41,162 bases of DNA from Gallionellales bacterium RIFCSPLOWO2_02_FULL_59_110 (GTDB taxonomy: Bacteria > Pseudomonadota > Gammaproteobacteria > Burkholderiales > Gallionellaceae), in the NCBI GenBank assembly GCA_001801215.1, contig MGXA01000107.1, positions 1 through 41,162 on the forward strand. The letters are read 5' to 3'. The notes under the pieces are model-generated. The model was not told where the DNA came from. It saw only the letters and a list, made by a program, of their open reading frames with translations, and ran no database searches. This document shows, piece after piece, positions 11,628 through 19,333 of this stretch. Position 1 is the first letter of the stretch; each line of letters starts with the position of its first letter. A program made the translations under genes and the position numbers.

Positions 11628-12290
11628 TCATTGCGGGCTGGCAAGACGGTAACCCAGCCCGCGCACGGTTTCGATGAGCTCCGGCGGCAGTTTCTTGCGC
11701 AGGCGCCCGATGAACACTTCGACAGTGTTGGAGTCGCGGTCGAAATCCTGCGCATAAATATGCTCGGTCAGGTCGCCGCGCGAAACGACCTCGTCACGAT
11801 GGTGTATGAGATAGGCCAATACGCGATATTCGTGGCCGGTCAGCGTCAATGTCCGCCCGTTCACGCTAACTCGGCTGCTGCGTGTGTCGAGCGTCAGAGG
11901 CCCGCAGACCAGTTCGGTACTGGCATGGCCGCCGGCACGGCGGATCAGCGCGCGCAGGCGCGCCAGCAATTCTTCCATGTGAAACGGCTTGGTCAAATAG
12001 TCGTCGGCCCCGGCATCGATGCCAGCCACCTTTTCGTGCCAGCTGTCGCGCGCGGTGAGGATCAGCACCGGCATCGTGCGACCGGCGGCGCGCCACTTTT
12101 TCAGCACCGTGATGCCATCCATCTGCGGCAGGCCGATATCCAGCACCACGGCATCATAAGGTTCGGTGTCGCCCATGAAGTGCGCATCCGCGCCATTGCG
12201 CGCGATATCCGCCACATATCCCGCCGCACTTACGCCCTCGGCCAGTTGCGCGGCCAGCATGGGTTCGTCTTCCACCACCAGAATACGCAT
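11628..12290 (-). CDS. OmpR/PhoP-family response regulator of module A
   Basis: 220 residues: receiver domain with E8/D9, phospho-acceptor D51 in VVLDIGLPQMDG, T79 and K101 in YLTKPF, and a C-terminal winged helix (about 125-218) with GHEYRVLAYLIHH, NTVEVFIGRLRKKL and IETVRGLGYRL. Regulators of this class bind direct repeats spaced 11 bp apart; exactly such repeats occur in the divergent promoter region at 12699-12735. Its start overlaps the PepSY gene stop (TGATG), and the kinase follows. I infer autoregulation and control of the cytochrome genes starting at 12788. Confidence 0.9.
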   Translation of the reverse strand: MRILVVEDEPMLAAQLAEGVSAAGYVADIARNGADAHFMGDTEPYDAVVLDIGLPQMDGITVLKKWRAAGRTMPVLILTARDSWHEKVAGIDAGADDYLTKPFHMEELLARLRALIRRAGGHASTELVCGPLTLDTRSSRVSVNGRTLTLTGHEYRVLAYLIHHRDEVVSRGDLTEHIYAQDFDRDSNTVEVFIGRLRKKLPPELIETVRGLGYRLASPQ

Positions 12291-12649
12291 CAGCGTCCTT
12301 TTTCGAGAGGAATACTTTTGTCGTTCTTTTCCTTGATGCCGAGCACCGTGCCGTCACGGGCGTCGATCTTGAGCTTGATCAATGCGCCGTCCCCGCGCAG
12401 CAGCTTGATCTCGTAGCGCCAGCCCGCGTCCTTGAGCTCCAGCTCGACCTCCATGACACGCCCCGGATGGTCGCGCTCGACACGCTCAAGGATAGTGCGC
12501 AGGGGAAGTATCTCGCCAGCCTCAAGCGCGCGACGGGCGCGATCATGGTCGTGATTATCGCCGGCCTGGCTTGCTCCCATGCCGAGCGATGCCAGAATCA
12601 GGGCGGTTGCCAGCGCCATCGGCAGTTTGCATGAAAGTTTGCCCAACAT
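12290..12649 (-). CDS. Secreted PepSY-domain protein
   Basis: 119 residues with a signal peptide (about 1-29, ending GASQAG), then one PepSY-like domain: ARRALEAGEILPLRTILERV and VMEVELELKDAGWRYEIKLL, ending in DGTVLGIKEK. PepSY domains are short periplasmic or extracytoplasmic modules, some inhibitory to proteases, commonly encoded with cytochromes, ferric reductases and two-component systems. It is first in the operon with the regulator and kinase, so it may tune signalling; this is inference. A second PepSY protein is encoded in the opposite operon (13745-14146). Length and layout are typical. Confidence 0.8.
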   Translation of the reverse strand: MLGKLSCKLPMALATALILASLGMGASQAGDNHDHDRARRALEAGEILPLRTILERVERDHPGRVMEVELELKDAGWRYEIKLLRGDGALIKLKIDARDGTVLGIKEKNDKSIPLEKGR

Positions 12650-12680
12650 CGCGATGCTCCGTACGGTTTCAATTCCATAT

Positions 12681-12753
12681 GTTATAGCGCATCGATTCTG
12701 AACGCTGGATGAACGGCGTATTCACTTTGCGTTCAGGTCTACTCCCGCATAGT
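12681..12753. promoter_or_regulatory. Symmetric divergent promoter pair with 11-bp direct-repeat operators
   Basis: Leftward: CGTTCA (minus strand, 12715-12710), N5, CGTTCA (12704-12699), 12 nt, then TATAAC (12686-12681). Rightward: TATTCA (12719-12724), N5, CGTTCA (12730-12735), 12 nt, then CATAGT (12748-12753). The two half-sites mirror each other about 12717. Direct repeats with 11-bp period placed over the -35 region are the hallmark of OmpR-family activators, and such a regulator is encoded just left. This likely drives both the PepSY-regulator-kinase operon and the SHP-DHC operon. Confidence 0.65.
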
Positions 12754-12787
12754 GCGCTCCCCATGTCCATTATCACAAGGAGAAATC

Positions 12788-17298: not shown

Positions 17299-17319
17299 CA
17301 GGGCTCCCGGAGGAGTGCG

Positions 17320-17988
17320 ATGCGCGTATTGGTAGTCGAAGACGATGCTTTGCTGGGCGACGCGATTCAGGCGGGCCTGAAGCAGTCCGGCTATGCCGTG
17401 GACTGGATGAAAGACGGCGTTTCGGCGGAACAGGCTCTCACCACCGAGCCTTATGCGGCGGTAGTGCTGGACTTGGGTCTGCCGCGCCTTTCCGGGCTGG
17501 AGGTATTGCGGCGCTTGCGCAAGCGGAGCGACTCGACCCCGGTGCTGATTCTGACCGCAATGGATGCGGTAGAAAGCCGCATCAAGGGATTGGATGCCGG
17601 TGGGGACGACTATCTGGTTAAACCTTTCGATATGGGCGAGTTGGCGGCGCGCTTGCGTGCGCTGCTGCGCCGTGCCAGCGGAAACCCTGAACCCCTGTTG
17701 CAGGCTGCCGGGGTGGAACTTGACCCCGCCGCGCATCGCGTGCTGTGCCGGGGTGAACCGGTCGAGCTTTCGGCCAAGGAATTTGCCGTGCTGCACATCC
17801 TGATGCTCAACGCGGGGAAAGTGCTGTCGCGCGCCAAGCTCGAAGAACAGCTTTACGCCTGGGGCGACGAGGTTGAGAGCAATGCGGTGGAGGTGTATAT
17901 CCATCATTTGCGCCGCAAGCTATTTCCGGAACTGATCGAAACCATACGCGGCGTCGGCTATTTGATGCCGCGCGACAAGGCTACCTGA
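17320..17988 (+). CDS. QseB/PmrA-like response regulator of module B
   Basis: 222 residues, OmpR family: E7/D8/D9 acidic pocket, phospho-acceptor D51 in VVLDLGLPRLSG, K101 in YLVKPFDMGEL, and a winged-helix domain (about 125-218) with AKEFAVLHILMLN, SNAVEVYIHHLRRKL and IETIRGVGYLM. Overall wording is closest to the QseB/PmrA/TctD subgroup, whose binding site is the CTTAA-type direct repeat found at 15564-15580. GGAGG lies before the start. The kinase gene begins 1 nt after the stop. Likely activates the operon it belongs to; the symbol is withheld because the true stimulus is unknown. Confidence 0.9.
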   Translation: MRVLVVEDDALLGDAIQAGLKQSGYAVDWMKDGVSAEQALTTEPYAAVVLDLGLPRLSGLEVLRRLRKRSDSTPVLILTAMDAVESRIKGLDAGGDDYLVKPFDMGELAARLRALLRRASGNPEPLLQAAGVELDPAAHRVLCRGEPVELSAKEFAVLHILMLNAGKVLSRAKLEEQLYAWGDEVESNAVEVYIHHLRRKLFPELIETIRGVGYLMPRDKAT

Positions 17989-17989
17989 G

Positions 17990-19333
17990 ATGCCGCAACG
18001 CGCATCGCTCAAATGGCGGCTGCTGGCGCTGGCCTTGTCGGTGACTACGCTGGTCTGGGTTGGCGCGGCCGCCTTTACCTACCTTGAGGCGATCGAGGAG
18101 TTCGACGAAATACTGGACGCACACCTGGCGCAATCGGCATCGCTGCTGACCTCGCAGGCGGCGCACGAAATCGACGAGATCGAAACCGAGCATACGCCGG
18201 TGTTTCACAAATATTCGCCCAGCGTGGCATTTCAGGTGTGGGAAAACGGCAAGATGCTCCGCCTGCATTCCGTCAACGCTCCCGGCAGTCGCATGACGGA
18301 GGTGGAGAACGGTTTCAGTTACGCTACGTTTGGCGGGCAGCACTGGCGCGTGTTCAGCACCTGGGCGGATGACGGGGTCTATTTGGTCCAGGTGGCGGAA
18401 CGCACTAAAGCGCGAGAAAAGATCGCAAACGAAATCATAGTCGAGGTGATGCTGCTCCCGCTCCTGTTTGCCCTGCCGTTGCTGGCGCTGTTTTTGTGGC
18501 TCGCGGTGTTGCGCGGCCTGCGCCCGCTGGGCAAGCTGGCGCGCGAAGTGGGGCAACGCAAGCCGGACAATCTGGCACCGCTGGATGCTTTATCCGCGCC
18601 CCGCGAAGTGTTGCCGCTGATCGAGCGGCTCAACCGGCTGTTCGCGCGCATCGAAACCTCCATGGAAAAAGAGCGGCGTTTTACCGCCGACGCCGCGCAC
18701 GAATTGCGCACGCCGGTGGCCGCTATCAAGGCGCAGGCGCAGGTGGCGCGCGCCGCTTCCGGGAACGAGGAACGTGCGCATGCGCTGGACAACGCGATTC
18801 TCGGCTGCGACCGCGCCGCCCACCTGATCGATCAGTTGCTGACTTTGGCCAGGGTCGATGCGCTGGACAACAGAACGGCAGAGACATGCCAGCCCAGGGC
18901 CATTGCGGCGGAGGCGATAGCCGCAATGGCGCCGGGAGCGCTCGAAAAGGGCGTGCAGATCGAGCTGCTGGAAAGCGACGAAGTTGCGGTGCGCGGCAAC
19001 CCGGAGTTGCTGCGCATCCTGTTGCGCAATCTGATCGACAACGCCGTGCGCCATACGCCATCAGGAACGATAGTGCGGGTAAATGTCGTCAGCGAGCAGG
19101 ATGCGGCCTGCCTGTCAGTGAGCGATAACGGCCCCGGAATCCCGGAAGAAGAGCGGTCGAAGGTGATGGAACGCTTCTATCGTCCGCTGGGCACGCAAGC
19201 CGGCGGCAGCGGTCTCGGGTTGTCCATCGTCAAGCGGATTGCCGAAGTGCATGAGGCGACATTGCGGATGCGAGCGGCGAGCGAAGGCAAAGGCTTGTGC
19301 GTAACGGTATGTTTCAAGAGCCTGCCGCAATAG
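17990..19333 (+). CDS. QseC-like sensor histidine kinase of module B
   Basis: 447 residues. TM1 about 11-31, periplasmic sensor of about 120 residues (QseC/2CSK_N-like, with VFHKYSPSVAFQVWENG), TM2 about 150-175, linker, H-box FTADAAHELRTPVAAIK with H237, N-box NLIDNAVRHTPSG, G-boxes DNGPGIPEEE and GSGLGLSIVKRI. Partner of the regulator encoded just upstream. QseC-type kinases are known neighbours of SHP clusters in many proteobacteria. It closes the redox region; a convergent FAD-dehydrogenase gene ends 142 nt downstream, and I see nothing notable in the gap. Confidence 0.9.
   Translation: MPQRASLKWRLLALALSVTTLVWVGAAAFTYLEAIEEFDEILDAHLAQSASLLTSQAAHEIDEIETEHTPVFHKYSPSVAFQVWENGKMLRLHSVNAPGSRMTEVENGFSYATFGGQHWRVFSTWADDGVYLVQVAERTKAREKIANEIIVEVMLLPLLFALPLLALFLWLAVLRGLRPLGKLAREVGQRKPDNLAPLDALSAPREVLPLIERLNRLFARIETSMEKERRFTADAAHELRTPVAAIKAQAQVARAASGNEERAHALDNAILGCDRAAHLIDQLLTLARVDALDNRTAETCQPRAIAAEAIAAMAPGALEKGVQIELLESDEVAVRGNPELLRILLRNLIDNAVRHTPSGTIVRVNVVSEQDAACLSVSDNGPGIPEEERSKVMERFYRPLGTQAGGSGLGLSIVKRIAEVHEATLRMRAASEGKGLCVTVCFKSLPQ

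Follow-up and report, generated by a model that had tools for sequence, protein, structure and literature searches.

We analyzed a 41,162-nucleotide contig (MGXA01000107.1, hereafter the window) from the genome of Gallionellales bacterium RIFCSPLOWO2_02_FULL_59_110 (GCA_001801215.1; 2.81 Mb in 112 contigs, 99.7% complete). The window carries two gene pairs, each encoding SHP, an oxygen-binding monohaem cytochrome c (DUF1924), and DHC, a dihaem cytochrome c. One set of genes (module A) closes with a transmembrane flavocytochrome of the NADPH oxidase (NOX) type, and the other (module B) contains a cytochrome b561. We propose that module A represents a separate variant of the SHP/DHC system, with the flavocytochrome in place of b561 and a route by which electrons would pass from NAD(P)H to SHP, a reading to which we assign a probability of roughly 0.7. 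Window genes were identified by Pfam, NCBIfam, and Protein Data Bank (PDB) sequence searches. The original prediction, made from the sequence alone, described two modules with different membrane partners, and these gene identities hold. Its further proposal that module A is a dedicated variant is supported by the recurrence of the module, by partner-specific clades of SHP and DHC, and by an operator of its own.

Recurrence and frequency of module A

Using the module A reductase (14165..15487, plus strand), we scanned named genomes and mapped the best 80 of 276 loci with profiles over a neighbourhood of 4.5 kb. SHP and DHC were both found within this distance of the reductase at 60 of the 80 loci. 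Three loci had DHC only, including one at a contig end (L038) and one with a weak match of 68 bits (L047), and 17 had neither, the reductase lying close to a contig end at three of these (L018, L064, and L078). Most of the hosts belong to the Betaproteobacteria (Thiobacillus, Rhodoferax, Accumulibacter, Thauera, Rhodocyclaceae, and Gallionellaceae). A sensor kinase of the type called SK1 by Meyer et al. (2010) was found repeatedly beside module A: the kinase and a PepSY gene lay within 4.5 kb at 49 of the 60 loci, divergently oriented in the maps drawn.

At 56 of the 60 loci, contig ends allowing, the b561 profile (E ≤ 1e-4) found no match within 4.5 kb, and the four remaining loci are L003, L059, L004, and L007. 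L003 is closely related to the window and carries the same pair of modules, and it is the only one of the 80 loci with module B directly behind module A, several of the loci ending too early to show what lies there. A swap of partners is seen at L161, L168, and L105, where the same divergent layout of SK1 kinase, response regulator, and PepSY gene has b561 where the reductase stands.

A PepSY_2 gene (13745..14146 in the window, plus strand) was detected at 37 of the 60 loci. We had considered its product as an essential part of module A, which this frequency does not support, and we treat it as optional. At four gammaproteobacterial loci (L062, L064, L082, and L196, with L064 cut at a contig end), PepSY_2, the reductase, and a b561-family gene make up yet another combination of these parts, with no SHP or DHC seen nearby.

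To place these loci in a wider setting, we sampled the order and the class of the host. DUF1924 was detected (E ≤ 0.001) in 107 of 399 genomes of the order, 89 of them with a strong match (117 bits or more), and in 57 of 369 genomes of the class. The order sample comprised 100 loci (94 strong hits outside the window and six weaker ones); the class sample comprised 57, including L183 and leaving out G506 (weak and broken) and G049 (already present as L168). Among 88 SHP-DHC pairs from the order, the partner was the reductase in three, b561 in 74, and neither in 11; among 54 pairs from the class, the corresponding numbers were 0, 48, and 6. The reductase-partnered variant is thus rare overall but coherent. 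Seven SHP-DHC pairs (L118, L126, L130, L131, L136, L143, and L149) have neither a same-strand b561 (≥100 bits) nor a reductase (≥300 bits) close by.

Relatives of the reductase at E ≤ 1e-30, counted as one best match per genome, were found in 45 of the 399 order genomes. Five of the 45, that of the window included, show at least 65% identity, and four of these five adjoin SHP and DHC. In the class, 15 of 369 genomes have a relative, and outside the window only L183, which is one of the 48 b561-partnered class pairs, adjoins SHP. There (6973-11000), a reductase from a distant branch lies directly upstream of a complete SHP-DHC-b561-QseC-like cluster, apparently a separate association. The original prediction took a reductase found as often without SHP and DHC as with them to speak against a dedicated variant. 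Among the nearest relatives this is not the case, since 60 of 80 have both; in the wider family it is, with one of 40 distant order relatives near SHP.

Partner-specific lineages of SHP and DHC

We labelled each SHP and DHC by its membrane partner and built quick trees from short alignments, without bootstrap; branch support is from the Shimodaira-Hasegawa-like approximate likelihood ratio test (SH-aLRT). Reductase-partnered SHPs formed one branch (64 of 64; SH-aLRT 97), as did reductase-partnered DHCs (65 of 65; SH-aLRT 100). The A copies of the window fall inside these branches, and its B copies are nearest to b561-partnered relatives. A tree of joined SHP and DHC sequences contained 206 pairs (64 with the reductase, 124 with b561, 17 with neither, and one with both), of which 202 are distinct; three of the four identical row pairs come from order-sample loci that repeat named loci. 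All 64 reductase pairs formed one branch with no other pair inside (SH-aLRT 99), and the b561 label needs 12 changes.

With a distant b561 row chosen as root, the reductase branch is nested among b561 types, and the b561-partnered loci L240 and L248 adjoin it. This position fits a single replacement of b561 by the reductase, which seems to have taken the place of b561 and not to have joined it. SK1 and PepSY regulators also lie beside 25 b561-partnered pairs, all outside the reductase branch. It is therefore the partner and not the regulator that marks the branch, and regulator type is ruled out as the cause of the split.

The A and B copies of the window are identical at 49 of 117 aligned positions in SHP and 46 of 118 in DHC (about 40%). 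A recent local duplication without partner-specific clades, named beforehand as an outcome that would count against a dedicated variant, is rejected by these identities together with the single reductase branches. Both SHPs are clear members of the family (PF09086 scores of 117.6 bits for SHP-A and 129.5 bits for SHP-B, against a cut-off of 22.5), and the CXXCH haem site, the Trp-X3-Asn ligand pocket, and the pair of disulphide cysteines are all present. In the alignment, W96, N100, and C101 occur in all 188 SHP rows labelled reductase or b561, and C109 in 187. The Trp and Asn of SHP-A sit at the positions of the sixth-ligand pocket of Rhodobacter sphaeroides SHP, and the Trp and Asn typical of O2-binding SHPs are present in both window proteins. 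Both CXXCH sites of DHC are conserved as well. Residues that distinguish the reductase type (L91 and W94 in DHC; K49, R64, Y87, and W117 in SHP; alignment reference numbering) are candidates for the interface with the partner.

A NOX-type flavocytochrome

The module A reductase has 440 residues, with Ferric_reduct and FAD_binding_8 domains (Pfam). Its best match in the PDB sequence search was 8qt6 (E 4e-29), the NADPH oxidase of Streptococcus pneumoniae (SpNOX). The domains behind the original label of "ferric-reductase-like" stand, and the label itself can be sharpened. The protein has two bis-histidine haem sites (H78-X13-H92 and H160-X12-H173), an FAD motif (HPFT(I), 261-264), an NAD(P) motif (GGIGVTP, 324-330), and CGP (409-411). 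The four haem histidines are kept in 43 of 43 aligned reductases (the window protein, 32 of 120 listed homologues, and 10 of the 80 loci). Across 106 reductase rows, simple patterns picked out two His-X12-14-His sites in 102, the FAD motif in 98, the NAD(P) motif in the form that we used in 84, and CGP in 105. At least some misses are artefacts of these patterns: of the four rows scored as lacking the two sites, two (L077 and L081) have all of the histidines in the alignment.

An AlphaFold2 model of the protein (predicted local distance difference test score 87.5; predicted template modelling score 0.82) shows six long helical stretches, one of which is broken; the family is expected to have a membrane domain of about six helices. 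The model matched SpNOX over its full length, including the SpNOX dehydrogenase domain (template modelling scores 0.72/0.79). The next matches were NOX5, DUOX1, and the phagocyte oxidase, with flavohaemoglobins, 1gvh among them, lower down; the NCBIfam flavohemoprotein model matched the sequence at E 1.5e-11, far under its cut-off. The protein has the sequence features used to search for bacterial NOX proteins, as far as the text of PMC5676040 gives them. In the same text, SpNOX is reported to reduce cytochrome c directly, also under argon, and to produce superoxide, and its authors propose periplasmic acceptors for bacterial NOX.

Two operators

We found a direct repeat, TGAAC-N6-TGAAC, with a period of 11 bases in 56 of 66 regions (duplicates included), each running from the PepSY gene to SHP or to PepSY_2/reductase. 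Direct repeats of 11 bases are typical of regulators of the OmpR/PhoB family. In a second count we used the 300 bases upstream of SHP and dropped pairs with fewer than 250 bases (2 of 64 reductase and 2 of 124 b561 pairs). The TGAAC repeat was present at 49 of 62 reductase-type pairs compared to 2 of 122 b561-type pairs. The two exceptions, L161 and L168, both have the SK1/PepSY set, and the other 23 b561 pairs with this set lack the repeat. A different repeat, CTTAA-N6-CTTAA, was found at 0 of 62 reductase-type pairs, 38 of 122 b561-type pairs, and 4 of 17 pairs with neither partner. Motif discovery and counting drew on overlapping sets, so it is the contrast between the types, and not the counts, that serves as evidence. 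The proposal that the modules are regulated separately gains support from these two different conserved operators.

In the window, the module A operator is an exact TGAAC repeat in the divergent promoter region (12699..12714, plus strand), followed by a second copy with one mismatch (12720-12735, minus strand). The CTTAA repeat occurs only with one mismatch, as CATAA-N6-CTTAA upstream of SHP-B (15564..15580, plus strand), which places the window outside the 38. This match is a probable module B operator; taken alone it could have arisen by chance, as at least two matches occurred in 12 of 100 shuffles of the window. A stricter form of the A repeat was found in the host genome at the module A promoter and at one other place, with one match for a control read backwards. 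Because this repeat is rare in its own genome, the module A regulator seems to act locally. A scan of 12600-15760 for sigma-70 promoters and terminators gave nothing above shuffled sequence.

The proposed electron route and the case for an independent reductase

We propose that cytosolic NAD(P)H would reduce the FAD of the module A reductase, that electrons would cross the inner membrane through its two b haems to the periplasmic dihaem cytochrome DHC-A, and that DHC-A would pass them to SHP-A, which would bind O2 (or NO, nitric oxide). Module B would do the same job fed from the quinol pool, its b561 (16606..17298, plus strand; PF01292, E 2e-26) being the presumed quinol-linked donor, and each module would answer to its own sensor pair and operator. 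In R. sphaeroides, DHC passes electrons to SHP, as stated in the text of PMC2909971. At most module A loci, our profiles find no membrane redox protein nearby other than the reductase. From this and the transfer in R. sphaeroides we infer the NAD(P)H route.

In a rival reading of the locus, the reductase works independently, as a ferric or metal reductase or a superoxide generator, within an SK1/PepSY regulon shared with the cytochromes, and SHP-A and DHC-A are fed by b561 or another quinol-linked donor. Several observations weigh on that side and against the NAD(P)H route. The reductase tree has 106 rows (66 with SHP and DHC, 25 with neither, 10 with PepSY partners only, three at contig ends, and two with DHC only), so that 10 of 106 reductases have the PepSY partners without SHP or DHC, and 25 of 106 have neither. 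The label for SHP and DHC needs 15 changes on this tree, at least 12 of them forced by well-supported branches, compared to a mean of 32 for shuffled labels. The reductase and SHP/DHC have therefore parted or joined repeatedly, and strict co-inheritance is not supported. Of the 40 order relatives with an identity of at most 53%, one has SHP within 10 kb, in the opposite direction. Most of the wider family thus lacks SHP, so the reductase is able to function by itself and might share only its regulation with SHP and DHC. SpNOX makes superoxide (as described in PMC5676040).

Both membrane partners occur in one cluster at L059 and L183, and a short b561-family gene (about 180 residues) lies right behind the reductase in the Thiobacillus loci L004, L007, and L164; its product is one that we take to resemble CybB of Escherichia coli. 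The choice of loci and the trees add further reservations: the reductase loci were picked by similarity to the reductase, which favours one clade; all three reductase loci from the order are repeats of named loci (L164 is L007, L155 is L016, and L165 is L044); and the SHP tree, one of the quick trees on short alignments, carries long-branch warnings.

What makes the independent reductase improbable in our judgment is the composition of the module A clade, in which all 64 pairs have the reductase and no pair with b561 alone is found, together with the empty b561 search at 56 of the 60 loci. In addition, one genome with module A (G167) lacks any relative of the window b561 at E ≤ 0.001, though it does have the short b561-family gene described above. 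On the present trees, the module A SHP and DHC are a single lineage, even though reductases lost or gained them repeatedly.

Possible function of SHP-A

The proposed NAD(P)H route is compatible with two accounts of what SHP-A does, both of which we hold tentatively and at less than even odds. In one, module A would be a periplasmic, NAD(P)H-driven NO dioxygenase, in effect a flavohaemoglobin split across the membrane. R. sphaeroides SHP is reported to oxidize NO to nitrate (NO dioxygenase activity), as cited in the text of PMC2909971, a paper in which the word "nitrite" does not occur. Taking PF02239 at E ≤ 1e-130 as the cd1 nitrite reductase NirS, we found this enzyme in 57 of the 89 order genomes with strong SHP compared to 38 of the 310 others (odds ratio 12.8), and, by genus, in 34 of 47 with SHP compared to 19 of 111 without. 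This co-occurrence points weakly to NO. It is an association of SHP as a whole and is not specific to module A; it is only coarsely corrected for kinship, lacks a control gene, and could be produced by shared lifestyle or kinship.

The cd1 nitrite reductase is present in each of the five genomes that carry a near reductase, and a flavohaemoglobin above the curated cut-off was found in none of the five. Against the NO account, one of them (G356) has the reductase and the nitrite reductase with no DUF1924 match, and the comparison of reductase-type with other SHP genomes did not show the reductase type to be richer in nirS (4 of 4, p 0.16). The likely purpose of module A, a weaker conclusion, would be the oxidation or handling of periplasmic NO from NirS. 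The full chain, in which a relative of NOX would send electrons from NAD(P)H by way of a dihaem cytochrome to a cytochrome c that binds O2 and oxidizes NO where NirS makes it, we regard as somewhat doubtful.

In the other account, SHP-A would be an oxygenase or oxygen carrier for a different substrate, such as an amine, or part of a response to metal or redox stress sensed through PepSY and SK1. Meyer et al., in the text of PMC2909971, propose an oxygenase and note amine binding and neighbouring genes for metal transport. In a crude set of stop-to-stop open reading frames with unannotated families, no further family occurs in more than 9 of 61 module A loci. This result counts against the NO account and also against a different substrate, as no widely common further neighbour names one.

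Comparison with described systems

Operons of SHP, DHC, and a cytochrome b with either SK1 and Orf1 or SK2 (QseC-like) kinases were described by Meyer, Kyndt, and Cusanovich (2010; PMC2909971), and module B is an ordinary member of that group. Module A is like those operons in its SK1/Orf1 set, SHP, and DHC, and differs in having no cytochrome b; it has a flavocytochrome of the NOX type instead, along with a second PepSY protein. None of the terms ferric reductase, NADH, NADPH, flavin, FAD, and PepSY occurs in the main text of PMC2909971, and in the open-access literature we found no paper describing a ferric-reductase or NOX protein in an SHP/DHC cluster, which is not to say that none is in print.

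With SpNOX, as described in the text of PMC5676040, the module A reductase shares the domain order, two bis-histidine sites, FAD and NAD(P) motifs, and predicted fold. Unlike SpNOX, it sits in a recurrent cluster with periplasmic cytochromes, and its oxidase activity is putative. The MsrQ-like and PepSY-like flavinylation clusters treated in the text of PMC8238504 likewise have a PF01794 membrane protein thought to send cytosolic electrons to a periplasmic acceptor; in module A, unlike these, a dihaem cytochrome would accept the electrons. Neither of the membrane PepSY families PF03929 and PF16357 was matched by the window PepSY proteins in Pfam, and Pfam found no ApbE or FMN-binding substrate among the module genes (flavinylation motifs were not scanned, and neighbours at the loci are unannotated). 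Flavohaemoglobin (Hmp) resembles module A in that a related FAD/NAD(P)H domain feeds an O2-binding haem. Module A differs from Hmp in that its parts are divided among separate proteins on either side of the membrane, and in that SHP belongs to the c-type cytochromes and not to the globins.

If the proposed wiring is true, the same kind of periplasmic cytochrome would draw on two electron pools within a single cell, with a separate operator for each. If the split-flavohaemoglobin account is also true, it would supply a physiological protein acceptor for a fused bacterial NOX-type enzyme and a role for SHP. Both what SHP does and what fused bacterial NOX-type enzymes reduce in life become testable, as the recurrent operon provides both a defined acceptor and a defined donor, along with a promoter and hosts.

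Organization of the locus

The module A genes on the plus strand span 12788-15487: SHP-A (12788..13189; PF09086, E 3e-34), DHC-A (13213..13704; PF09626, E 1.7e-37), the PepSY_2 protein (PF13670, E 2e-14), which likely has a signal peptide judging from its sequence, and the reductase. From the coordinates, the gaps between these genes are 23, 40, and 18 bases, and 142 bases separate module A from SHP-B. No third DUF1924 match was found in the host genome at E ≤ 0.001 besides modules A and B.

The minus strand at 10238-12649 carries the regulatory genes of module A. A PepSY gene (12290..12649; PF03413, E 1.6e-9) comes first and, by its position and size, is probably Orf1 of SK1 systems. It is followed by an OmpR/PhoB-family response regulator (RR-A, 11628..12290; Response_reg and Trans_reg_C), for which the top NCBIfam model was PmrA with a score under the cut-off, and by the SK1-type sensor kinase (10238 to about 11617; HATPase_c, E 1e-18, scanned over 10238-11614), in which both periplasmic motifs, YWQ and RSRSLWD, are present. 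The original prediction gave each module its own two-component pair; both pairs exist, but the interval assigned to the modules left out the kinase and regulator of module A, and a minus-strand PepSY gene stands with them.

Module B (15630-19333) lies entirely on the plus strand and consists of SHP-B, DHC-B, b561, a response regulator, and a kinase. SHP-B (15630..16049; PF09086, E 6e-38, scanned from 15582) most likely starts at the GTG at 15630, which follows a likely ribosome site, rather than at the start of the open reading frame at 15474; among solved structures, it comes nearest to 1e8e (cytochrome c'') and 1dw0. For DHC-B (16060..16590; PF09626, E 3e-36), the nearest is the DHC structure 2fw5. 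The response regulator (RR-B, 17320..17988) has Response_reg and Trans_reg_C domains, and the QseC-like, SK2-type sensor kinase (17990..19333) has HisKA, 2CSK_N, and HATPase_c domains and matched the NCBIfam QseC model at E 1e-92 (311 bits, under the model cut-off of 475). A further two-component pair, a histidine kinase (PF06580) and a LytTR response regulator, lies at 8419-10229 and adjoins the gene for argininosuccinate lyase.

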